Source: Aminobacter aganoensis (lineage in GTDB: Bacteria; Pseudomonadota; Alphaproteobacteria; Rhizobiales; Rhizobiaceae). From it: a stretch of 64,000 nucleotides of DNA. The position numbers were made by a program, and so were the translations under genes. Positions 1,994 to 17,715 of this stretch are shown here, one piece after another; position 1 is the stretch's first letter; the number at the start of each line of letters is the position of its first letter. The stretch lies in the NCBI RefSeq assembly GCF_014206975.1, contig NZ_JACHOU010000011.1, positions 1 through 64,000 of the forward strand, in the 5' to 3' direction. The notes under the pieces were generated by a model. That model searched no databases. It saw only the letters and a program-made list of their open reading frames with translations, and was not told the origin of the DNA.

Positions 1994-2866
1994 TCAAGTT
2001 CCGGGGTGGAGGACTGACGTCATAAAAGCCTCGATCTTGGGCGAGTACTGGCGTTCTTGCAGGCACGCAAGCCGATACTCGGTCCGGATCATGGCATCCT
2101 CGATGCGGATCGTCTCGAGACGAGGGTGCGCGACAAACTCGAAGTCCGCGACGACCCCAATACCCAGTCCACGCTCCACGGCCTTCCAGACCCCCTCGCG
2201 GCTGCCGATCTCGAGCAACGGCTTTGTGAGCACTCCTGCCTTCTCTGCCGCCAGCTCAAAGGCACGGCGGGTCGTAGATCCGGTTTCGCGCAGGATAAGG
2301 GGCTGATCCGCCAGTTCGGCGATCTTGATGCTCTCGCGGCCATGCCAAGGATGATCCGCATTTACGAACACGACCACCTCATGAGTGCTGAAGGGAACCG
2401 AGTAGATCCGAGGATCATCCACGACATGGGCGAGGATGGCGACGTCGGATTCCAGATCGAGGATCCTCTGGAGTGTCTGGTCCGAATTACCCAAGAGCAT
2501 GCTGACTTTGATTGACGGGTACTTGGCAAGGAAGCGTGCCACCATCTCTGTGGCATGGAAAGGCCCGACTGCCGCCAGCCGCAACTGGCCTGTCGTCAGC
2601 CGCCCGCTGCTGAGCAGCAATTCCTCGGCCTCGTCTTGTAAGCTCATGATGCGCCGGCTGATGTCGAAGAGAGCGGCGCCTGTCTCCGTAAGCTCGACGC
2701 GGCGTCCACGGCGAACCAGCAATTCAACGCCGTAGCGGTCCTCCAACTCCTTCACCTGCGTCGTGACAGTCGGTTGGCTGATGTGAAGGGCGTTGGCCGC
2801 GGCGGTGAAACCACGGTTTTCTGCGACGGCATGGAACGAGCGGAGATGGGTAAATACTATAGCCAT
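1994..2866 (-). CDS. LysR-family regulator of phosphonate genes
   Basis: 290 residues, the usual LysR length. The N-terminal winged helix-turn-helix spans about residues 3-62 (FTAAANALHISQPTVTTQVK is the recognition region), followed by a periplasmic-binding-like effector domain from about 90 to 290. The gene is divergent from the Fe-alcohol dehydrogenase/phnDCEE operon and shares a 93-base intergenic region with it. LysR regulators are known companions of aminoethylphosphonate clusters and normally activate the divergent operon on binding a pathway compound. Control of both arms of this cluster is inferred from position. Confidence 0.88.
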   Translation of the reverse strand: MAIVFTHLRSFHAVAENRGFTAAANALHISQPTVTTQVKELEDRYGVELLVRRGRRVELTETGAALFDISRRIMSLQDEAEELLLSSGRLTTGQLRLAAVGPFHATEMVARFLAKYPSIKVSMLLGNSDQTLQRILDLESDVAILAHVVDDPRIYSVPFSTHEVVVFVNADHPWHGRESIKIAELADQPLILRETGSTTRRAFELAAEKAGVLTKPLLEIGSREGVWKAVERGLGIGVVADFEFVAHPRLETIRIEDAMIRTEYRLACLQERQYSPKIEAFMTSVLHPGT

Positions 2867-2959
2867 GGTCTATGATAAGCGACAAAGATTTGTATTAGTC
2901 AATGGATCGGGACTTCGCCACACTCCTCCTTGCCATCAGTTCAGGACAGGAATTCAACC
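2867..2959. promoter_or_regulatory. divergent promoter/operator region, LysR gene versus phosphonate operon
   Basis: This 93-base AT-richer gap separates two diverging transcripts and must hold both promoters and the LysR sites. No consensus Pho box (paired CTGTCAT-like repeats) is visible, suggesting substrate induction rather than classic phosphate-starvation control. The exact LysR boxes could not be assigned by eye. Confidence 0.5.
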
Positions 2960-4087
2960 GTGTGGTCATATAGCAATCCCGTCGACATCCGTTTTGGCCG
3001 GGGCAGTTTTTCCAGGCTTGCCGACGCCATCGGCGGCCGCAGATACGCTCTGGTCACTTATGGCGATCCATATTTCCGGAACCTTGTTGCCGAACTTGAG
3101 AAAAAGGCGGGCCGCCCTTCCTTGGTCATCGATGACATCGCGCCCAATCCAGACATCGTCCTCTTGGAGATGCAGACCGCGCGCTTCGCCAGGCTCGCCG
3201 AGCAGCCAGAAGTCATCGTCGCGCTCGGCGGAGGGTCGGTCATCGACTCGGCCAAGGTCTTTGCCGCAGCACTGGGAGATTTCGCGACGGTAGACGCTTA
3301 TCTCAAGAAGCGAGCTGGCGGCGAGACGATCAAACCCTGGCCGCTGATTGCAGTCCCGACAACCGCTGGCACCGGAAGCGAAGTCACTTGCTGGGGAACC
3401 GTCTGGGACAATGCGGGCGGGGTAAAGTTCTCGCTGGCGCACCCGGGTCTCTATCCCGAATTCTCAATCGTCGATCCCGACCTGATGGTCGGCAAACCGC
3501 GCGAGCTGACTATCCAGACCGGGCTCGACGCGCTGTCGCACTCGCTGGAAAGCCTCTGGAACCGCAACTCCAATCCCGTTTCCATGGCGCATGCTGTCAT
3601 GGCGGCCCGCGGCGTGCTCTCGACCTTGCCGCTTCTTGCCAACGACCTTCGCAATCCCGACCTCCGTGAGCGGATGGCTCGCGCAGCCACACTTGCCGGA
3701 TTTGCCTTCTCGAACACCAAGACGGCCATCGCGCATTCGCTGTCTTATCCCATCACCTTGCGCCACGGCGTCCCGCACGGCATCGCCTGCTCGTTCTCCT
3801 TGCCGATGATCATTCGCAGCGTTGCGGGAGAGGGGGGCATCTGTGCGGAGGGACTGAACGCGATATTTGGTAGGGGTGCAGACGGCGCGGCCGATCAACT
3901 CATGGCGTTCCTAGCCAAGCTCGGGGTCGCCACTAACCACCACCACTACGGCATCGAAGATGGCGAATGGCGCGAGTTGATTGACCTCGCCTTCGATGGT
4001 GAGCGTGGACAGAACTTCATCGGCCGCAAGGACAACCTGCTGAAGGCTGCTGGTCTAGGCAAGGAGAAACGCCAGGCAGTTGCATGA
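2960..4087 (+). CDS. phosphonate-associated iron-containing alcohol dehydrogenase
   Basis: 375 residues from a GTG at 2960, preceded by CAGGACAGG nine bases upstream. A TTG at 2930 would add ten residues but has only pyrimidines before it, so GTG is preferred. The protein has the group III (Fe-dependent) alcohol dehydrogenase fold: nucleotide-binding LGGGSVIDSAK near residues 89-99, PTTAGTGSEVT, and the metal-site histidines around GLDALSHSLES and the later AHSLSYP and HGVPHG segments. A subfamily of these enzymes occurs in phosphonate-use gene clusters, where reduction of phosphonoacetaldehyde or a related aldehyde is the likely role. The stop is 56 bases before phnD, so the two form one operon. 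Confidence 0.85.
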   Translation: MWSYSNPVDIRFGRGSFSRLADAIGGRRYALVTYGDPYFRNLVAELEKKAGRPSLVIDDIAPNPDIVLLEMQTARFARLAEQPEVIVALGGGSVIDSAKVFAAALGDFATVDAYLKKRAGGETIKPWPLIAVPTTAGTGSEVTCWGTVWDNAGGVKFSLAHPGLYPEFSIVDPDLMVGKPRELTIQTGLDALSHSLESLWNRNSNPVSMAHAVMAARGVLSTLPLLANDLRNPDLRERMARAATLAGFAFSNTKTAIAHSLSYPITLRHGVPHGIACSFSLPMIIRSVAGEGGICAEGLNAIFGRGADGAADQLMAFLAKLGVATNHHHYGIEDGEWRELIDLAFDGERGQNFIGRKDNLLKAAGLGKEKRQAVA

Positions 4088-8847: not shown

Positions 8848-10032
8848 ATGGCAAAACACACCCCTTCGACCGACCTTGCCGACGCAATGCCGCTTCCCGC
8901 CAGCTTCGACATCAAGGTCCCCACGCGCAGAGAAAGAAGCGCGCGCGTGGCAATCGTCCCGCCCTCCATCGCGACGCCTGCAGCAGGCGAAGCTCCCGAT
9001 TATTCCGGTCTCGGAATCCCTGCCGAGGCTGTTCCCGCCCTGGAAGCGGCCCGCGTGCGGCTGGCCGCTCTCGGCCGGCTCGAGACATCGCATGTCTATG
9101 AATACGGCGCGGTCATCCATGACGTGCGCGAAGCAGCGCCAGATCAGGCAACCTTCGCCAAATGGGCCAAGAAGATTCTGAATCTTTCGCGGCGCGGTGC
9201 TGAGAACTACGTCTCTGTTTATCGGATCTTGAGCCCGTACCGGAACCGTGTCGAGGCCCTGCGCCTGAGGCCGAGCACACTTTATCTGATGGCAAGTGCC
9301 CAGCCGGAGCGCATCGAGAATCTGCTGGCGCAGCAGGAAGCTGGCCACAAGCTAGCGGTCAAAGATGTGAAGGCGATCCTTCGCGAAGGCAACGAGCCGG
9401 AGACAGAGAAACGGGCCGTTTCAAGAGGTGGCGTCGCGGGCCTGAGAGCCCAGATCGCCGAGAAGACCAGTTGTGGCGTCGCGGCGATGATGGACACGGC
9501 CGTCGACATCCTCAAGGCAATCCACGTCGCCCTCGAGCCGCATCGACAGGGCAAACGGGTGCCCAAGGACGCGACGATGCGGCCGTTGATTCATCCCGTC
9601 CGCTTGCTGCGCGAGCAGCTGGAGTCGCTGATCTGGCTCGCTCAACCGGCGGGGCAGGGGTTCCAGGATGGCGTCGTGCATGTGATGCCGCTGAGCCGAG
9701 ATGATGAGTGGTATAGGCTCTGGGCGATGCTCCAGGATCTTGGCGGCTACGAGACTTGGCCGCAGGCTGCCGACATTGGAACCTGGCTTAGCGACACTGT
9801 GGTGCCGCAGCTCGAGTGGCTGGTCGGCGATCGCGCGGAGAAGGCGGCTGCCGTGATCGATGAGATGGCGAAAGCTGCCGCTGCGCGCGACAAGGCCGCG
9901 AAGAAATCGGGTGCGAAGGCTAGCGCCAACAAGACGGGCAAGGGAGCCAAGGCAACCAGGCGAGATAGCATCGAGACCTTGTCTGCGGCCGTGGACGCCA
10001 TTGCAATCCGACCGCCGTCGACCAACGTCTGA
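8848..10032 (+). CDS. putative DNA-binding protein with DUF3102-like domain
   Basis: 394 residues from the ATG at 8848, which has AAGGAG eight bases upstream; an in-frame start at 8794 has no such site. Residues about 65-165 (alpha-helical, 'HVYEYGAVIHDVRE...FAKWAKKILNLSRRGAENYV') resemble the DUF3102/KorB-like helical domain in which a cell with sterile-alpha-like spacing recognises a site before a conserved 'Y-x-S-V-Y' helix. The middle is rich in Trp and acidic residues; the last 60 residues are Lys/Ala/Gly-rich and likely disordered. It has its own promoter and is followed by a strong hairpin. A role in regulating or partitioning the element is inferred; the family match is by eye only. 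Confidence 0.6.
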   Translation: MAKHTPSTDLADAMPLPASFDIKVPTRRERSARVAIVPPSIATPAAGEAPDYSGLGIPAEAVPALEAARVRLAALGRLETSHVYEYGAVIHDVREAAPDQATFAKWAKKILNLSRRGAENYVSVYRILSPYRNRVEALRLRPSTLYLMASAQPERIENLLAQQEAGHKLAVKDVKAILREGNEPETEKRAVSRGGVAGLRAQIAEKTSCGVAAMMDTAVDILKAIHVALEPHRQGKRVPKDATMRPLIHPVRLLREQLESLIWLAQPAGQGFQDGVVHVMPLSRDDEWYRLWAMLQDLGGYETWPQAADIGTWLSDTVVPQLEWLVGDRAEKAAAVIDEMAKAAAARDKAAKKSGAKASANKTGKGAKATRRDSIETLSAAVDAIAIRPPSTNV

Positions 10033-10632: not shown

Positions 10633-10764
10633 TCGGGGCTCGCTGACATCAGGGTGCATCGACATCCCTGACATGGCAGCCGCGTCCCGCGTCATCGCCA
10701 CCACCCATCGCTTCTTGTTCCAGCTTTACCCGTGGCGCTGCCGCGGGCGGGAGATTTTTTGCCC

Positions 10765-11286
10765 ATGCTCAAGCCTCACGCCGACAATCCGAAGCGACAT
10801 TCTGATTCCGCGTCTCCGTCGCCAGTCAGCGACCTCACTGGAACTGCCGCGAATCCATTGTCTCGCGACCAGCGTCTGATCCGACAGTCACTGCATGGTC
10901 TCGGCAAGCAGCCTATGTCACATGCCGCCGAGCCCGACGCGCGTCCAATTCCGAACCCTGGGCGACGCCAGGCCAGTTCCATGCAGACCGTGCTGGAGCT
11001 TCTCGGCCACAGTCCGGAATGCGCACGGCTGGCCCGGGCAGGCTTGGTGACGTCCTGCAACTGCCACCTGAAAGCGGCCGACGATCCGGCTGTCGTCGTT
11101 GGCCTTGCCGTCCATTTTGCACGTTCGGCACTCATGCATGGCGTGCCTCTGCCGGCGTCGGTCGCCGAGCAGCTAACCAAGGCTGTCGAGGCAGGGGATT
11201 CGGCATGCCGTTCGGTCGCGGAGTGGCTTGCCGACCTCGGGCTGCTGGTGCTGGCGCCGCATTTGTCGGCCGAGGCGGGCCGATGA
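10765..11286 (+). CDS. hypothetical protein preceding the AAA+ ATPase, 173 aa
   Basis: Start chosen at the ATG 10765, with GGGAG about eleven bases upstream; an in-frame ATG at 10732 lacks a site. The N-terminal 70 residues are polar and Pro/Ser-rich; the C-terminal 100 are helical and Ala/Leu-rich and include a Cys-rich patch (SPECARLARAGLVTSCNCHL). No family recognised. The stop TGA overlaps the ATG of the ATPase gene (ATGATG), so translation is coupled and the two products probably act together. Confidence 0.65.
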   Translation: MLKPHADNPKRHSDSASPSPVSDLTGTAANPLSRDQRLIRQSLHGLGKQPMSHAAEPDARPIPNPGRRQASSMQTVLELLGHSPECARLARAGLVTSCNCHLKAADDPAVVVGLAVHFARSALMHGVPLPASVAEQLTKAVEAGDSACRSVAEWLADLGLLVLAPHLSAEAGR

Positions 11287-13046
11287 TGGAGGCGCGTCTT
11301 GCGAGATTTTTTGTCAGGCGGCTCCGACGTCGGGCGACTAGCGAGGCGGTCCACGACGCGGTCGCCAGCGGCATCCTGCGTGTGCTCCCGGAAGATCGGG
11401 CGGACTTTGAGTCTGGTGCCAGCCCGCGCGCTTTTGCCGTCGGCCCCCTGGTTGCGGGGACATCAGCGGAAGAAGCACTGCGGATGATCCGCCGCAGCAG
11501 TGCAGCCGGGCGCGCCAGGCGTAGCGATGACAACGCCGATTTTTTCCGCACCACCTCGGTGAAGCTGCGCAACGAGGCACGCCGGGCCGGCGAGGAGGCC
11601 TCGCAGGCCGAAGCCGAAAGCCCTCGGGTTGAGCACCAGGCGCGTGCGCTCCTCGACGCCGTCCGAGCCTCCGCCATGCCTTTGCGGGCCGGCGATGTCG
11701 CAGCCGCGCTTCTGGTTGCGCAAGCTGCCGGCAAGAGTGGTCTGCCGCCGGCGGAGATCGCAGCAGCCCTTTCGATGCTCTCGCCGATGGTCACGCTCAC
11801 GGCAGAAGTCGAAGGTTTCGAAGAGACCGTCCTGGGCCTGCTTGCGGGCGGTGTGCTCGCGCCAGGGCGGGTCGCTGTTTGCGAAGGTAGTGAGCTGTCG
11901 CGGTCCGGGTCGCAGCGCTTCTCGCGAGCCAGGGATCCAAGATGGCACGCCATCGTCTTCAAGGCGTCGGAACTCGATGACGACGGCGACTGGCGAGAGC
12001 GCCAGCTCGGTTTCGCCGCCGAAAGCGGTTATCCGATCGTCGGCATCTCCGAGCGCGGACCGGTAATCCCGGAGGTCTTGCGACGGGTCGCTGCCGTGCA
12101 CCTCGACTGCGGATCGCTGACACCTGATATCGTAATGAACACGATGCTTGTGGTCCTGGGCTCGCGCCACGATGATCATCTTGATCCCGAGCACACGGCG
12201 GTGCTTGCCCTTTCGGACCTTGCGCTCGCCATCCGTCCGGGCCAGTCGCCGGCCCGTGCTTTTGCATTGCTGGGCGATCTCGGTCGCCGGCGCATTAGGG
12301 CGAAGCAGGAAACGAGAAGGGCGGGCAGTGCCGGGCACGCGACTGCGGGCGGCCTAGTGAAGCGCAAGACGGGCCGCGGGTCAGGCAGTGGCGCCGATGT
12401 CATCCAGCCCCGCATGCCAGGCAGCACGGCAACCGATCGCTTCCTTCCCCGCATCGAAACCCTTGCCGGATATGGCGAGGCTGCCGAATGGGCGATGTCG
12501 CTCAAGGAAGACCTGGAGCTTTGGCGGGCGGGCGAACTTGCCTGGTCGGAAATGAGCACCAGGATCTTGCTGTCGGGACCGCCGGGCACCGGCAAGACAC
12601 TGTTCGCCCGCGCTCTCTGCAACACCTTGCAAGTGCCGCTGGTCGCAACGTCGGTGGCGACGTGGCTGGAGCCGGGATACCTGGGCGATGCGCTCAGGCG
12701 CATGAGCGCAACCTTTGCCGAAGCAGAAGCGATGAAGCCGGCGATTGTCTTCATCGACGAGATCGACGGGATTGGCCGCCGCGAACGGCGCGGCGAGTGG
12801 GATCAATATTGGACATCGATCGTCAACAGAGGTCTCGAACTTCTTGATGGCGCGGTCAAAACGCCGGGTGTCATTGTTGTTGCAGCGACGAACAATGCTC
12901 AGGCAATCGACCCGGCGCTGCTGCGGTCGGGTCGGCTCGAGAAACATGTCGACATCCCGCCACCCGGCATCGCAGCCCTCACTGGCATCCTGCGCCACCA
13001 TCTTGGCGACGATCTCGAAACCATCGCCGCCAGCGCGGCGGAGTGA
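11283..13046 (+). CDS. FtsH-like AAA+ ATPase without peptidase domain (lid truncated)
   Basis: 587 residues from the ATG overlapping the previous stop. Residues 1-400 are soluble, with no membrane segment, unlike true FtsH. The AAA+ module follows: Walker A GPPGTGKT at about 432-439, Walker B IVFIDEID at about 488-495, and second-region-of-homology TNNAQAIDPALLRSGRLEKH at about 537-556 with the arginine fingers. It ends soon after GILRHHLGDDLETIA, where FtsH-type proteins continue into the helical lid. The missing lid helices are encoded at the start of the M41 gene 541 bases downstream. The protein should unfold substrates for that peptidase. Whether the split is native or due to insertion is open. 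Confidence 0.8.
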   Translation: MMEARLARFFVRRLRRRATSEAVHDAVASGILRVLPEDRADFESGASPRAFAVGPLVAGTSAEEALRMIRRSSAAGRARRSDDNADFFRTTSVKLRNEARRAGEEASQAEAESPRVEHQARALLDAVRASAMPLRAGDVAAALLVAQAAGKSGLPPAEIAAALSMLSPMVTLTAEVEGFEETVLGLLAGGVLAPGRVAVCEGSELSRSGSQRFSRARDPRWHAIVFKASELDDDGDWRERQLGFAAESGYPIVGISERGPVIPEVLRRVAAVHLDCGSLTPDIVMNTMLVVLGSRHDDHLDPEHTAVLALSDLALAIRPGQSPARAFALLGDLGRRRIRAKQETRRAGSAGHATAGGLVKRKTGRGSGSGADVIQPRMPGSTATDRFLPRIETLAGYGEAAEWAMSLKEDLELWRAGELAWSEMSTRILLSGPPGTGKTLFARALCNTLQVPLVATSVATWLEPGYLGDALRRMSATFAEAEAMKPAIVFIDEIDGIGRRERRGEWDQYWTSIVNRGLELLDGAVKTPGVIVVAATNNAQAIDPALLRSGRLEKHVDIPPPGIAALTGILRHHLGDDLETIAASAAE

Positions 13047-13171
13047 CCAACAAACGATAGTCACGGCCGAATGCACTCAATCCGCAAATGCCGTTCTGCT
13101 GATCCCAACTCCAGGCATGACAATCCACTGAACCAAGCACGACGCCCACTCAACAGGAGCACCCCTGACAC

Positions 13172-13510
13172 ATGCTGATGTTCGATCCACAGAACGGCCG
13201 GTATGACCCACGTTTCGAGCGCGAGACCGACCGGCTGATAGCCCTTGCTTCCGATATGGAGAAAATCCGCAATGGCGCCGATCCCAGCGATCTGGCTGCC
13301 GGAGCACCGATCCTCGATCAATGGATTGTTGCCGAGCACTCGGTTCCCTGTCTGGCCGGCCTGTCGTCCGGTCACCCGATCCTCACCGGCACCGGCAGGC
13401 TGATCGCCACGTCGGACCTCATGCTCGTCGCCCACGACCAATCCTGGGCACGGACACGCTCGCGCTTCTACCGCCTCGGTCGGCCAGGTGGTGCTGCATC
13501 CAATTCCTAG
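13172..13510 (+). CDS. small conserved protein, DUF6634-like
   Basis: 112 residues from the ATG at 13172, with AGGAGC 13 bases upstream. Sequence opens MLMFDPQNGRYDPRFERETD and contains PILDQWIVAEHSVPCLAGLS and SGHPILTGTGRLIATSDL, which I associate with the DUF6634 family of small rhizobial proteins of unknown function. No membrane segment or catalytic motif is seen. It sits exactly between the two halves of the FtsH-like protease, in the same direction, so it is either a third subunit of the system or a gene moved in between. Confidence 0.6.
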   Translation: MLMFDPQNGRYDPRFERETDRLIALASDMEKIRNGADPSDLAAGAPILDQWIVAEHSVPCLAGLSSGHPILTGTGRLIATSDLMLVAHDQSWARTRSRFYRLGRPGGAASNS

Positions 13511-13555
13511 GCTCACAGATGACGAACCGGAAATGAGTGAGGGGACCGGAGTGAA

Positions 13556-13565
13556 CTCAGGCAAA
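13556..13565. promoter_or_regulatory. half-site of the GGCAAAGTTTGCC palindrome
   Basis: CTCAGGCAAA matches ten bases of the left arm at 10611-10620 exactly, 23 bases before the M41 gene start. The right arm is absent. It may be a weak single-arm site or chance. Confidence 0.3.
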
Positions 13566-13587
13566 CCCATGGAGCAAAAGACAGCCG

Positions 13588-14340
13588 ATGCATGAGCATG
13601 CCATTGATCCTGGCACCGAGGCGGTGCTGCATACCCTTGCGCGGCAGGCGAGTGGGCTGACCGGCGCCGATGTCGAGCGGATCGTGCGTGAAGCGCGCCA
13701 GAAGGCCCGACGCGAACGTCGTCACCTGAGCTTCGACGATCTGCAGGCCGGGCTTGCCGCCACCAGGCCAATCTGGCCCGAGACCCTGCGGCGGCGCATG
13801 GCGATCCATGAAGCCGGCCATGTCGTGGCCCACCTGACGCTCGGCACGGCCCGGATCGAGACCGTCACAATCGACGGTCCTCAAGGCGGGCATGTCGAAG
13901 GCGAGACCTACAGTCTCGTCGCCCAGAGCGAGGCAGGCATTGCCGCACAGATCGTCACGAAGCTGGCCGGTCGCGCCGCGGAAGAGGAGATTCTGGGAAG
14001 CGTGTCCGCCGGTGCCGGCGGCTCGCCGCGGAGCGACCTCGGCCTGGCCACCGAGCTGGCATTGGCAATGGAGACGACTTTGGGCTTTTCCAAGCAGATG
14101 CCGCTGCTGCACAGGCAGGTCGAGGCAAAGTTTGCCCAACTGGCGGATGGGGCTGACCTCGCCATCCGTGTCAACGACCGGCTCGAGCATGCCTATCGGC
14201 AGGCGCGGGAGCTCATCCGGCGCCATCGTCCCTCGGTCCAAAGGATCGCCGATGCGCTGATGACGGTCGGCACCCTCGATGGAAATGAACTCGATGCGCT
14301 GATGTCCGACAGCGACCGTAACGGAAATACCGGGTCTTGA
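13588..14340 (+). CDS. FtsH-like M41 zinc metallopeptidase subunit
   Basis: 250 residues. Residues about 10-60 (LARQASGLTGADVERIVREA) are the AAA+ lid/sensor-2 helices of an FtsH-type protein, normally attached to the ATPase. The peptidase follows: HEAGH at 74-78 supplies two zinc histidines and the catalytic Glu, and the later GSPRSDLGLATELA segment holds the Asp that is the third zinc ligand in FtsH. The protein lacks its own ATPase. The ATG at 13588 has GGAG 13 bases upstream, a weak site; no longer in-frame reading exists because a TGA lies at 13552. It most likely assembles with the ATPase encoded upstream to form a soluble ATP-dependent protease. Confidence 0.8.
   Translation: MHEHAIDPGTEAVLHTLARQASGLTGADVERIVREARQKARRERRHLSFDDLQAGLAATRPIWPETLRRRMAIHEAGHVVAHLTLGTARIETVTIDGPQGGHVEGETYSLVAQSEAGIAAQIVTKLAGRAAEEEILGSVSAGAGGSPRSDLGLATELALAMETTLGFSKQMPLLHRQVEAKFAQLADGADLAIRVNDRLEHAYRQARELIRRHRPSVQRIADALMTVGTLDGNELDALMSDSDRNGNTGS
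14124..14136. promoter_or_regulatory. GGCAAAGTTTGCC copy inside the M41 gene
   Basis: The 13-base palindrome is identical to the two non-coding copies but here falls within codons for E-A-K-F-A-Q, a sequence constrained by protein. It could be a real third site or coincidence. Confidence 0.35.
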
Positions 14341-14551: not shown

Positions 14552-14890
14552 TCAGTCCCTGGATCCACCGCCAGCGGCGTCGACCTTGTGCCGCCTCAGA
14601 TGCGGCTTCGGGAAAAAGTCCCAGCCGTCTTCGTAACGCTCAAGCAGCCCTTCCCACGCGGCTCGCGTTGCCTCGGCGTTGAAGCCCTGGTCGACCAGCT
14701 GTCGCGAAACCTCGACGATCACTCGGCCCAGTAGCCGATCGCTGCCGCGTTGCTGCGCCGACACGATCATGTAGCGCAGCATGGCCCGTGCGATATCGTC
14801 GCGATCGGGAGCCCGCTCCTGCCTGCGCTTTGCCCGGTACTCACGCTGATAAATCCGCTGCCTCTCCAGTCTCTCGTGTCTCCGCGCCAT
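14552..14890 (-). CDS. small basic protein of unknown function, 112 aa
   Basis: Start chosen at the ATG complementary to 14888-14890 because a perfect AGGAGG lies six bases upstream on the minus strand; longer readings up to 15199 run through repeats and are unlikely. The first 30 residues are extremely basic (MARRHERLERQRIYQREYRA, then KRRQERAP), a likely nucleic-acid-binding helix. The rest is helical (ARAMLRYMIVSAQQRGSDRL, RAAWEGLLERYEDGW). No family recognised. It is convergent with the M41 gene, and AAACGCCGTTT sites lie on both sides, so it may regulate itself through them. That is inference. Confidence 0.6.
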   Translation of the reverse strand: MARRHERLERQRIYQREYRAKRRQERAPDRDDIARAMLRYMIVSAQQRGSDRLLGRVIVEVSRQLVDQGFNAEATRAAWEGLLERYEDGWDFFPKPHLRRHKVDAAGGGSRD

Positions 14891-14948
14891 CGTCATCCTC
14901 CTCATCTCATGGTGCAGGACAATCGTCGGCTCAGGCCATGCAAGCGAC

Positions 14949-14959
14949 AAACGCCGTTT
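14949..14959. promoter_or_regulatory. AAACGCCGTTT palindrome, copy 3
   Basis: Within the wider palindrome CAAACGCCGTTTG (14948-14960), about 59 bases upstream of the 112-aa minus-strand gene, a natural operator position over its promoter. Confidence 0.65.
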
Positions 14960-14981
14960 GCGCTGTAACGACATTCTCGAA

Positions 14982-15030
14982 TTCTGAATCGTCTGCGGAG
15001 GCTTCTGAATCGCGGTACGAAAGATCAGAA
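14982..15030. repeat. direct TTCTGAATCG repeats plus inverted copy of the half-site
   Basis: TTCTGAATCG occurs at 14982-14991 and 15003-15012, 21 bases apart (two helical turns), followed by the inverted TCAGAA at 15025-15030. They lie upstream of the 112-aa gene and beside AAACGCCGTTT copy 3, so a second regulator may bind here. Confidence 0.5.
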
Positions 15031-15197
15031 TCCGAATAGCGCAAATTTTTCTGATTTGTTTTGCGTTGTGCGCAGCGTGGACCGACATGCCAGGCCATCG
15101 AATGCACGTGCCGATGAGGTGTCGCCTGTCGCAAAGGCATTGATCTGGGTCTTGCAAGGCGAACTGCATGCCGAAGCGTATCGACCAGGAGCTGGAC

Positions 15198-15208
15198 AAA
15201 CGCCGTTT
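15198..15208. promoter_or_regulatory. AAACGCCGTTT palindrome, copy 4
   Basis: Within CAAACGCCGTTTG (15197-15209), the same extended form as copy 3 and 249 bases from it, in non-coding DNA between the 112-aa gene and the integrase. Confidence 0.6.
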
Positions 15209-15630: not shown

Positions 15631-17535
15631 TCAGATGTTGCTACGGCGTCCGAACGTGCGCTTGCCTCTTGCCAGCCGCTCAAAATCCAAACCGTCGAAC
15701 ATGGAGTAATCGACCCCCTCTTTCAGCGGTGTTCGCGCCATTTCGCGGGCGCGGCTTTCGCTGATCGCCCGAAACCCGTAGAAGTCATGCTCGTCGTCGA
15801 GCGTGTGGCCAGCCTGTAGTTTGCGGTCACGCGTATCGACCCTGTTGTCACGCATCAATTCAATATTGCCGCCACGAAGGGAATGGAAAACTTCCTTGCG
15901 CTTCTCCGTGACGCCTGCCTTTTCGAACAGCCGGCTCATGTAAGAACTGGCGCTCTTTGACGGATCAATGAGGCGCATCAGTTCCGGGAACAGAAACTGG
16001 TCGCCGCGCGCTGCCGCCCATTGGACGAAACCGATCTCCTTCAGGAAGCCGTGCAGCACAAAGAACGTGGAACTGGCTTCAGTCTTGATCGGTACACGTC
16101 TCCAAGTCTTGCCGACCTTGATGATGCCGCTGGTCTGAGCAATCCAGACGTCTTTGTATTTCTCGCGGATATCATTTCCCGTGAGGTGGACGAGCAGGCC
16201 AAGCCGACGCCCTGTGAGATGACCAAGCAGTGGCAGCATGGCCTCGTCCAGAAGTCCGCGATCGATGCCTATTCTGAAGATGCGACTGATCTGGTCTGCG
16301 CTGAGCGGCTCTGTCGCCTGACTTGGCGCGGCCGTCTCGGGATAGAAAATCTTGGCGCCGGAGAATGGATCGCGGTAATCGTGCTCGGTCAACTTTGAGC
16401 GAACCATCGCCTTGATGTTGGCGACATAGCCCTCGCGCAGCGTCTTGATACCGAGCGGCTTTTGCGACAGGTCCCGGTTGGACGCGATGATCTCGCGGGC
16501 GCTCATGCGGACGGGGCGTTCCTTCACCGAAGCCGGCCAATATTTCAGGAGCGCGACGTAGGCCTGCAGATCGGTGCCCGTGTACGTGTCGACGGGATGG
16601 TCGCCGATCAACTCGATGAACAGGTCGCGCCTGAAGCGGGCCGTTTCCACGTCGGCATTGTCCTCGCCCGATCTGGCTTTTCTTGCGGCCAGGTATTCGT
16701 TCGAAATGGTGCTAAACAGCGGTTTACAGGAGGGGCGCCGCTCCACCGTGCGACGATCGAGCTCGAAGGCAGGCACCGACGAGGTGGCTTTGGACATTGT
16801 CCGGGCTGCTGGGCGCGGCTGTCCTGCAGCAGCGGGGCCGAGTTCCGACCCTGAGGTGGCTGGCTGGGTAAGCACTGGCGGAGCGATGGTCGCTCCCTCG
16901 CGGTTCGTGGCGAGCGGCTCGGCACCGATTGCACTCGTGCGAGCAATCTTGTCGACATAGCGCGTCTTCAGGAGTTCGACATTGTCGACGACCACTGGAT
17001 TTCCCGCCGGACCCATTGCCAGTTCGCGCGCGATGCCCACCAGCCCGCGAACCCCTTCGAAGGCAGCTTCCTGATGCGGCGGGCTCGGAGGGGGTTCCTG
17101 CGACAGGAGCGAGGTCATGGCCTTTAGGTAACCTCGAACCTCGGATGCCACTTCGCCCGCTGTCTCGCCCGAGAACTGCGGGGTACCATGCCCGTATCTT
17201 CCCTTGCCGCCGTCATTGTCCTGCCCGCTAGCCAATCGCCGTGTCCTGATCCTGTCGAAGCAAAAGCGGGCATGCGCCGCCATCAGGTCTGCCTGGACAC
17301 GTGCCTGCCGCGCCGTCAGCGCGCCGAGGCTGACGCGGACGGGGCGCAGGGCTTGGTCGCACAGGTCCTTCGGGACCTTAATCTGAAAGATGTAAACAGA
17401 GCCTGACCGTACCAGGTAGCGACCGGGTCGCGCTTTCCCAGGCCGTGCGTTGCCCGCTGATCGCAGCGGTTCCGCATCTTTCGCGGGTGATACTTCGCCC
17501 GATACACCAAGCGATACTTTCGACGATACTTCCAT
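15631..17535 (-). CDS. tyrosine recombinase (integrase) of a tRNA-Ser element
   Basis: 634 residues, longer than typical phage integrases. An N-terminal SAM-like arm region (LVRSGSVYIFQIKVPKDL, DUF6538-like) is followed by a variable, low-complexity middle (about 210-260), a core-binding domain and a C-terminal catalytic domain. Catalytic residues seen: Arg in TGRRLGLL, His551-x-x-Arg554 in HSLRGG, His577 in AGH and the nucleophile Tyr586 in DEHDFYG. The gene starts 90 bases from the 3' end of tRNA-Ser and reads away from it, the usual arrangement for an element integrated at a tRNA gene. It should mediate excision and integration of the accessory region to its left. Confidence 0.87.
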   Translation of the reverse strand: MEVSSKVSLGVSGEVSPAKDAEPLRSAGNARPGKARPGRYLVRSGSVYIFQIKVPKDLCDQALRPVRVSLGALTARQARVQADLMAAHARFCFDRIRTRRLASGQDNDGGKGRYGHGTPQFSGETAGEVASEVRGYLKAMTSLLSQEPPPSPPHQEAAFEGVRGLVGIARELAMGPAGNPVVVDNVELLKTRYVDKIARTSAIGAEPLATNREGATIAPPVLTQPATSGSELGPAAAGQPRPAARTMSKATSSVPAFELDRRTVERRPSCKPLFSTISNEYLAARKARSGEDNADVETARFRRDLFIELIGDHPVDTYTGTDLQAYVALLKYWPASVKERPVRMSAREIIASNRDLSQKPLGIKTLREGYVANIKAMVRSKLTEHDYRDPFSGAKIFYPETAAPSQATEPLSADQISRIFRIGIDRGLLDEAMLPLLGHLTGRRLGLLVHLTGNDIREKYKDVWIAQTSGIIKVGKTWRRVPIKTEASSTFFVLHGFLKEIGFVQWAAARGDQFLFPELMRLIDPSKSASSYMSRLFEKAGVTEKRKEVFHSLRGGNIELMRDNRVDTRDRKLQAGHTLDDEHDFYGFRAISESRAREMARTPLKEGVDYSMFDGLDFERLARGKRTFGRRSNI

Positions 17536-17625: not shown

Positions 17626-17715
17626 TGGCGGAGAGGGAGGGATTCGAACCCCCGATGGGCTTGCACCCATGCCGCATTTCGAGTGCGGTGCATTCGACCA
17701 CTCTGCCACCTCTCC
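17626..17715 (-). tRNA. tRNA-Ser(CGA), reads codon UCG
   Basis: On the minus strand: acceptor GGAGAGG pairs with CCTCTCC, anticodon stem CCGCA/TGCGG encloses the loop CTCGAAA (anticodon CGA), a long variable arm typical of serine tRNAs follows, and the T-loop is TTCGAAT. Discriminator G (17629) and an encoded CCA (17626-17628) are present. The length of 90 with CCA is normal for tRNA-Ser. The 3' end faces the integrase gene, so it probably serves as the attachment site. Confidence 0.95.

Follow-up and report, generated by a model that had tools for sequence, protein, structure and literature searches.

In a 64,000-nucleotide stretch of the Aminobacter aganoensis genome (contig NZ_JACHOU010000011.1, positions 1 to 64,000; hereafter the window), the AAA+ ATPase and the M41 zinc peptidase of an FtsH-like protease are encoded as two separate proteins, with a gene for a DUF6634 protein between them. 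From sequence comparison, we believe with a probability of about 0.75 that the pair derives from FtsH and constitutes a natural AAA+ zinc protease, soluble and made of two subunits. The three genes are consecutive on the forward strand:

11283..13046, forward strand: soluble AAA+ ATPase subunit, 587 residues (PF00004; FtsH_fam positions 198-345)
13172..13510, forward strand: DUF6634 protein, operon partner (PF20339)
13588..14340, forward strand: M41 zinc peptidase subunit with the remaining AAA lid at its N-terminus, 250 residues (PF17862 and PF01434; FtsH_fam positions 351-598)

The ATPase stop and the M41 start are 541 bases apart, with gaps of 125 bases between the ATPase and DUF6634 genes and 77 bases between the DUF6634 and M41 genes. 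These coordinates, the spacing and the intervening DUF6634-like gene were correctly given in the first-pass annotation of this DNA, according to the open reading frames and the match to PF20339. Although the ATPase frame stays open upstream of the start assigned here, this start, an ATG at 11283, forms an ATGA overlap with the stop codon of the upstream gene.

The ATPase matches PF00004 (AAA, E-value 5.6e-30), and the M41 protein matches PF01434 (Peptidase_M41, E-value 6.3e-19, 69 bits against a cut-off of 29.9). The two proteins tile the 598-position FtsH_fam model, positions 198-345 being covered by the ATPase and 351-598 by the M41 protein, and each piece scores far under the whole-protein cut-off of 600 bits. 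Together they therefore cover a single FtsH catalytic core except for five positions of the model. In the ATPase, an N-terminal domain of ~390 residues without a family match is followed by the AAA large domain, and the chain ends 36 residues beyond the second region of homology (SRH), following a conserved segment whose consensus is PxPDxxALAGILAHHLGxDL. We take this segment to be the hinge and the first lid helix, as in FtsH, which places the break in the loop that joins the first two lid helices. PF17862 (AAA_lid_3) matches residues 14-53 of the M41 protein over profile positions 4-44 of 45, at 27.8 bits, just above the cut-off of 27.2. The first-pass annotation had let the ATPase end just after the SRH and had assigned the lid to the M41 protein; the lid model does lie almost whole on the M41 protein, and the description is refined in that the hinge and first lid helix presumably remain on the ATPase. 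Its view of an unusual order of lid and peptidase is not supported, as lid followed by peptidase is the normal FtsH order and the chain break is the unusual part.

The lid halves flanking the break are conserved (D577 on the ATPase side in 96%; L14, G23, A27, and D28 on the M41 side in 100%), and the loop at the break itself is unconserved and variable in length. Among the rows that passed a strict motif pattern, the ATPase tail spans 36-109 residues (27 of 61 split rows), and fused relatives carry 45-81 residues between the two motifs (11 of 18 rows), compared with 42 in the host FtsH. The M41 heads of four loci (L169, L195, L196, and L244) are long, the first in-frame start having been taken. 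A longer loop at the split point is seen in L173, L185, L206, and eight more fused members. This longer loop may explain recurrent breaking and joining at this site.

Both active sites are well preserved. In the ATPase, residues G432, G437, K438, D492, E493, N537, R548, and R551 are kept in all 56 aligned sequences, and the zinc site of the M41 protein is complete (H74 in 51 of 52 aligned; E75, H78; D150 in 52 of 52). The Walker A and B, arginine-finger, HExxH, and Asp-ligand residues are all intact in the window pair. A simple, crude hydropathy scan found no likely transmembrane segment in either window protein, with best 19-residue values of 1.66 for the ATPase and 0.91 for the M41 protein, under the 2.41 of the host FtsH. 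This agrees with the earlier statement that both proteins have no membrane helix. Thus neither a transmembrane segment in the scan nor an inactive zinc site among the aligned ligands, the two features named at the outset as contradicting a soluble protease, was found. Some relatives reach higher hydropathy, up to 2.15 in a split ATPase and 2.26 in a fused form.

We compared the break point in 81 loci, comprising the window and the 80 strongest listed M41 matches in 394 genomes from its family (excluding the genome that holds the window), fetched with their flanks; the M41 search scored the best six or fewer candidates per genome. The two proteins are split in 61 loci, including the window, and form a single chain in 18, and in the other two the contig edge comes before any ATPase. 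The outcome in which related genomes nearly all carry one continuous gene, which would have pointed to simple disruption, did not appear. Among the 61 split loci, the M41 start codon overlaps the ATPase stop in 50, DUF6634 lies between the halves in 10, and the remaining one (L225) has its ATPase C-terminus cut short. The overlaps consist of 33 four-base ATGA junctions, 11 with ATG at -7, and six with other offsets or codons.

The first-pass annotation had left two options for the pair, a natural two-subunit protease or a single gene broken by an insertion. On the second option, a single FtsH-like gene would have been broken by DUF6634 insertion or by decay, and the pieces would be remnants. 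A gene does lie between the halves in the window and nine more loci, and frameshifted members of the wider AAA-M41 family exist (L118, at 2362-3656, L022, and L272). However, the overlap without an insert in 50 of 61 split loci, against DUF6634 between the halves in only 10, indicates that DUF6634 insertion was not the cause of the split, and the frameshift in L118 leaves the lid motif in the ATPase frame, with the peptidase continuing in a different frame, unlike the window. The preserved active sites also argue against remnants. Furthermore, comparison of the window with the two relatives nearest to it gives ratios of nonsynonymous to synonymous substitution rates (dN/dS) of 0.14-0.17 for the ATPase, DUF6634 (0.15), and M41 genes, showing purifying selection on all three, with synonymous divergence (dS) to the second relative of 1.25-1.45, near saturation. 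We therefore consider a broken gene very improbable, and the natural pair is the option that these data favor. The split is most simply read as an old, selected arrangement.

It could also be argued that ribosomes shift frame where the genes overlap and so translate the halves as a single fused protein; such an overlap is present in 50 of 61 split loci and mostly spans 4 or 8 bases. The overlaps are of the start-stop type, however, with ATG used in 48 of 50 and with differing offsets, and a purine-rich stretch resembling a ribosome site is seen just upstream in many of them (by eye, uncounted). In the window and nine other loci, a whole gene stands between the halves. We give frameshifting hardly any credence.

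Several observations suggest that the ATPase and the M41 peptidase work together. When the ATPase was searched in the 394 genomes (best three or fewer candidates per genome), M41 homology was adjacent in all 89 listed matches at an E-value of 1e-60 or lower, 18 of which lie in long single-chain frames where adjacency is automatic. By coordinates, 88 of the 89 are adjacent, and the last (G688) has its M41 gene in two frames. In a tree from the quick search, a clade of 80 rows with a Shimodaira-Hasegawa-like approximate likelihood ratio support of 99 contains 63 split and 17 fused members; this tree counted L118 as split although it is frameshifted, and skipped L216 and L224, which came without an ATPase. 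In a more careful tree of 86 rows, from which L118 (frameshifted) and L225 (ATPase cut off) were left out, the fewest changes between split and fused forms number seven, three of them forced by well supported branches. Bootstrap trees require six to seven changes, and none of 200 is compatible with a single change. A single split clade was rejected by the approximately unbiased (AU) test (p-AU 1.5e-5, two trees compared). These trees indicate that the split and fused forms interconvert, and such repeated interchange, a Rosetta-stone pattern, argues for a physical partnership of the ATPase and the M41 protein. The distances in the AAA and M41 parts are correlated across the 61 split pairs (r 0.88), a correlation that is not specific to these two parts (see below).

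An alternative is that the two proteins act separately, the ATPase as a remodelling enzyme and the peptidase with another unfoldase, or the peptidase as a toxin restrained by an ATPase antitoxin. Precedents are IetAS and SgiAT, which an excerpt of PMC5006074 presents as AAA ATPase antitoxins with protease toxins, and IetA models give a weak match to the AAA domain (62 bits). On the other side, 18 of 81 relatives are single chains and the two states interconvert, which argues for one machine, and the half of the lid carried by the peptidase is strongly conserved. We consider separate action unlikely, and a joint two-subunit protease remains our preferred explanation.

A number of observations weigh against this explanation. 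As separate proteins, the ATPase and the M41 peptidase could act apart. The 80 loci compared with the window were selected for their resemblance to a split protein, so the 61 of 81 cannot be read as a population frequency, and the set contains near-copies (L179 and L180, and L219 and L220, are identical in their tree rows). The window pair shows two gaps (125 and 77 bases) instead of the overlap typical of its relatives. The AU test was carried out post hoc, with the tree already known, and the trees contain some long branches. The distance correlation is unspecific: against M41, it is 0.89 for DUF6634 (n=14; AAA against M41 there is 0.80), 0.84 for the small upstream gene (n=18), and 0.75 for the DUF3102-like neighbor (n=38). 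A nuclease-like gene common among the relatives (see below) was not found in the window (best E-value 0.15). Finally, few neighboring genes were defence genes; the neighbor scan, which covered 119 of 156 eligible proteins, gave three DNA_methylase and three Mrr_cat matches together with several metabolic families, and was made without a control set, so no enrichment is claimed.

Compared with FtsH and the M41 family, the window pair has the same AAA large domain, lid motif, M41 domain with HExxH and a third Asp ligand, and linear order. It differs in being two polypeptides broken inside the lid, with no membrane anchor seen and a long N-terminal domain without a family match. The parts thus belong to the FtsH family, yet the two-chain soluble form lacks two defining FtsH features, the single polypeptide and the membrane anchor. 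The M41 subunit alone belongs to Peptidase family M41, with PF01434 above its cut-off and the zinc ligands present. An ordinary single-chain FtsH is encoded by the host as well, the match at C11:106976-107731 lying in a 679-codon frame. The nearest relatives outside the clade are single-chain AAA-M41 proteins of alphaproteobacteria, several of which are annotated as AAA family ATPase; these are one chain, mostly in frames of ~640-760 codons, and six such loci (L015, L016, L021, L024, L029, and L119) also have DUF6634 nearby. In ClpXP and HslUV, the unfoldase and the peptidase are separate proteins, and the ATPase retains its whole small domain. The window pair is alike in having a separate unfoldase and peptidase, whereas its peptidase carries most of the lid. 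The likeness to IetAS and SgiAT, judged from the same excerpt (PMC5006074), lies in a mobile-element-borne pair of AAA ATPase and protease, the protease there being subtilisin-like and here an M41 zinc peptidase. Identity of the ATPase with IetA itself was considered and rejected: the IteA equivalog model gave 59.4 bits against a cut-off of 510, and the 62-bit PADLOC IetA match covers the AAA part only. A literature search of open-access papers found no description of a split FtsH.

Hexameric, ATP-dependent proteolysis as in FtsH is predicted for the window pair. Six ATPase and six M41 subunits would form stacked rings, and the N-terminus of each M41 subunit would dock on an ATPase subunit and complete the lid bundle in trans. 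This docking would replace the lost covalent link and finish the nucleotide pocket. The N-terminal domain of the ATPase, perhaps with DUF6634 as an adaptor or gate, may select a cytoplasmic substrate. The small domain of an AAA+ protein is commonly regarded as an inseparable piece of a single chain, and a natural break within one, maintained under selection and exchanged more than once with fused forms, lets both the supply of a lid in trans and the gating of a proteolytic motor be tested directly. In ClpX, altering or deleting the hinge between the large and small domains largely eliminates function, according to a portion of PMC7112951; the window hinge differs in remaining covalent, as the break lies one helix further on. 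A speculative and rather doubtful extension is that the shared small domain is a switch, with the motor idle until the peptidase docks with the rest of the lid and DUF6634 gating this step, such that proteolysis would follow a trigger, e.g. phage or plasmid entry. If true, the module would define a new class of AAA+ protease that can dissociate and that serves in conflicts among mobile elements.

The module, a probable soluble protease, recurs in rhizobia and related bacteria, both on integrative elements and on plasmids. Around the three genes, the window contains the following features:

8848..10032, forward strand: conserved 394-residue protein, weakly DUF3102-like (neighbor cluster in 47 of 81 loci, including the window; start picked for its ribosome site)
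10732..11286, forward strand: small conserved upstream gene with a start-stop overlap with the ATPase (neighbor cluster in 37 of 81 loci, a count in which the window copy is displaced by the longer ATPase frame)
14555..15199, reverse strand: conserved small neighbor gene (neighbor cluster in 33 of 81 loci, including the window)
15631..17535, reverse strand: tyrosine integrase with a DUF6538-like N-terminus (weak Pfam match and phrog_1; cluster in 20 of 81 loci, including the window)
17626..17715, reverse strand: tRNA-Ser(CGA) (ARAGORN), likely the attachment side of the element

The window integrase has a weak Pfam match (E-value 0.01) and matches phrog_1 integrase with an E-value of 5.4e-12. 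Transfer RNA (tRNA) genes were sought in 27 fetched M41 loci, including all 19 with an integrase (the window apart), and were present in six. In the window (Ser) and five of these loci (L193, Gln; L198, Ser; L209, Gln; L224, Ser; L242, Ser), the M41 gene is followed by an opposite-strand integrase and then, 80-134 bp on, by the tRNA gene. The sixth locus (L229) has a tRNA-Met without such an integrase, and no tRNA was found in the fetched stretches of the other 14 integrase loci. In seven of eight genomes of the same genus, homology to the window ends at the tRNA 3′ end, 17626, and in the eighth (L253) it continues for 106 bases, to 17520, a stretch that may belong to the end of a related integrase gene. 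The tRNA 3′ end at 17626 is likely the right boundary of the element. No copy of the tRNA end, and hence no attachment repeat, was found within the window, and the left boundary of the element was not found. The 3′ end of tRNA-Ser(CGA) resembles an insertion hotspot, as the adjoining sequence is unlike that of the window in seven of the eight same-genus genomes. The linkage to an integrase and a putative DNA-binding protein had earlier been taken to suggest control of a mobile element or defence. The link to an element is supported by the window and five other loci, each with an integrase next to a tRNA gene, and a role in control or defence would be an extension of this. By analogy with IetAS, the most likely use of the module would be to degrade a particular target protein and thereby help to maintain or defend integrative elements and plasmids, a use to which we give somewhat less than even odds.

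The DUF6634 assignment rests on a PF20339 match of 32.5 bits against a cut-off of 27. Of 126 DUF6634 places, 43 are no more than 6 kb from one of the listed M41 places, compared with 0.1 expected under uniform placement. By BLAST, DUF6634 was found in 29 of the 81 loci (7 upstream, 10 between the halves, 12 downstream) and in none of the other 52. DUF6634 therefore looks like a real partner of the module. It had no solved-structure match below an E-value of 0.27, and no paper on it was found in the search of open-access literature.

The protein at 8848-10032 is possibly DNA-binding: DUF3102 matches were found in 14 of 36 scanned members of its cluster (best E-value 2.5e-4) and not in the window's own copy. 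The nuclease-like neighbor mentioned above (e.g. L219:3508-4548) is present in 50 of 81 loci, with E94, D152, D167, and K169 in all 47 full-length members and P151 in 46. This E, D, DxK pattern suggests a PD-(D/E)XK nuclease. It had no solved-structure match, and its Pfam matches are weak and confined to single members (VRR_NUC, 0.023; AHJR-like, 0.027; and four unrelated families, including a stronger DUF1902 match, 5.2e-4). Since this gene is absent from the window, the operon there may represent a reduced version.

In a sample drawn from the whole order, the M41 query finds matches at 1e-15 in 53 of 397 genomes. Beyond the family of the window, most listed M41 matches lie in long single-chain frames, with a few short ones in G210, G375, G134, and G381; the short match in G375, L022, is frameshifted. 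In these samples, with some of the short frames outside the family examined, it was within this family that the conserved split appeared. Split pairs also occur on rhizobial plasmids, plain in L112-L115, with the ATPase itself in two frames in L116 and L117, and frameshifted in L118. Viral contigs gave 16 loci, two of which (L256 and L257) look split by motif only, and 28 records of known phages match the M41 query, all at less than 60% identity.

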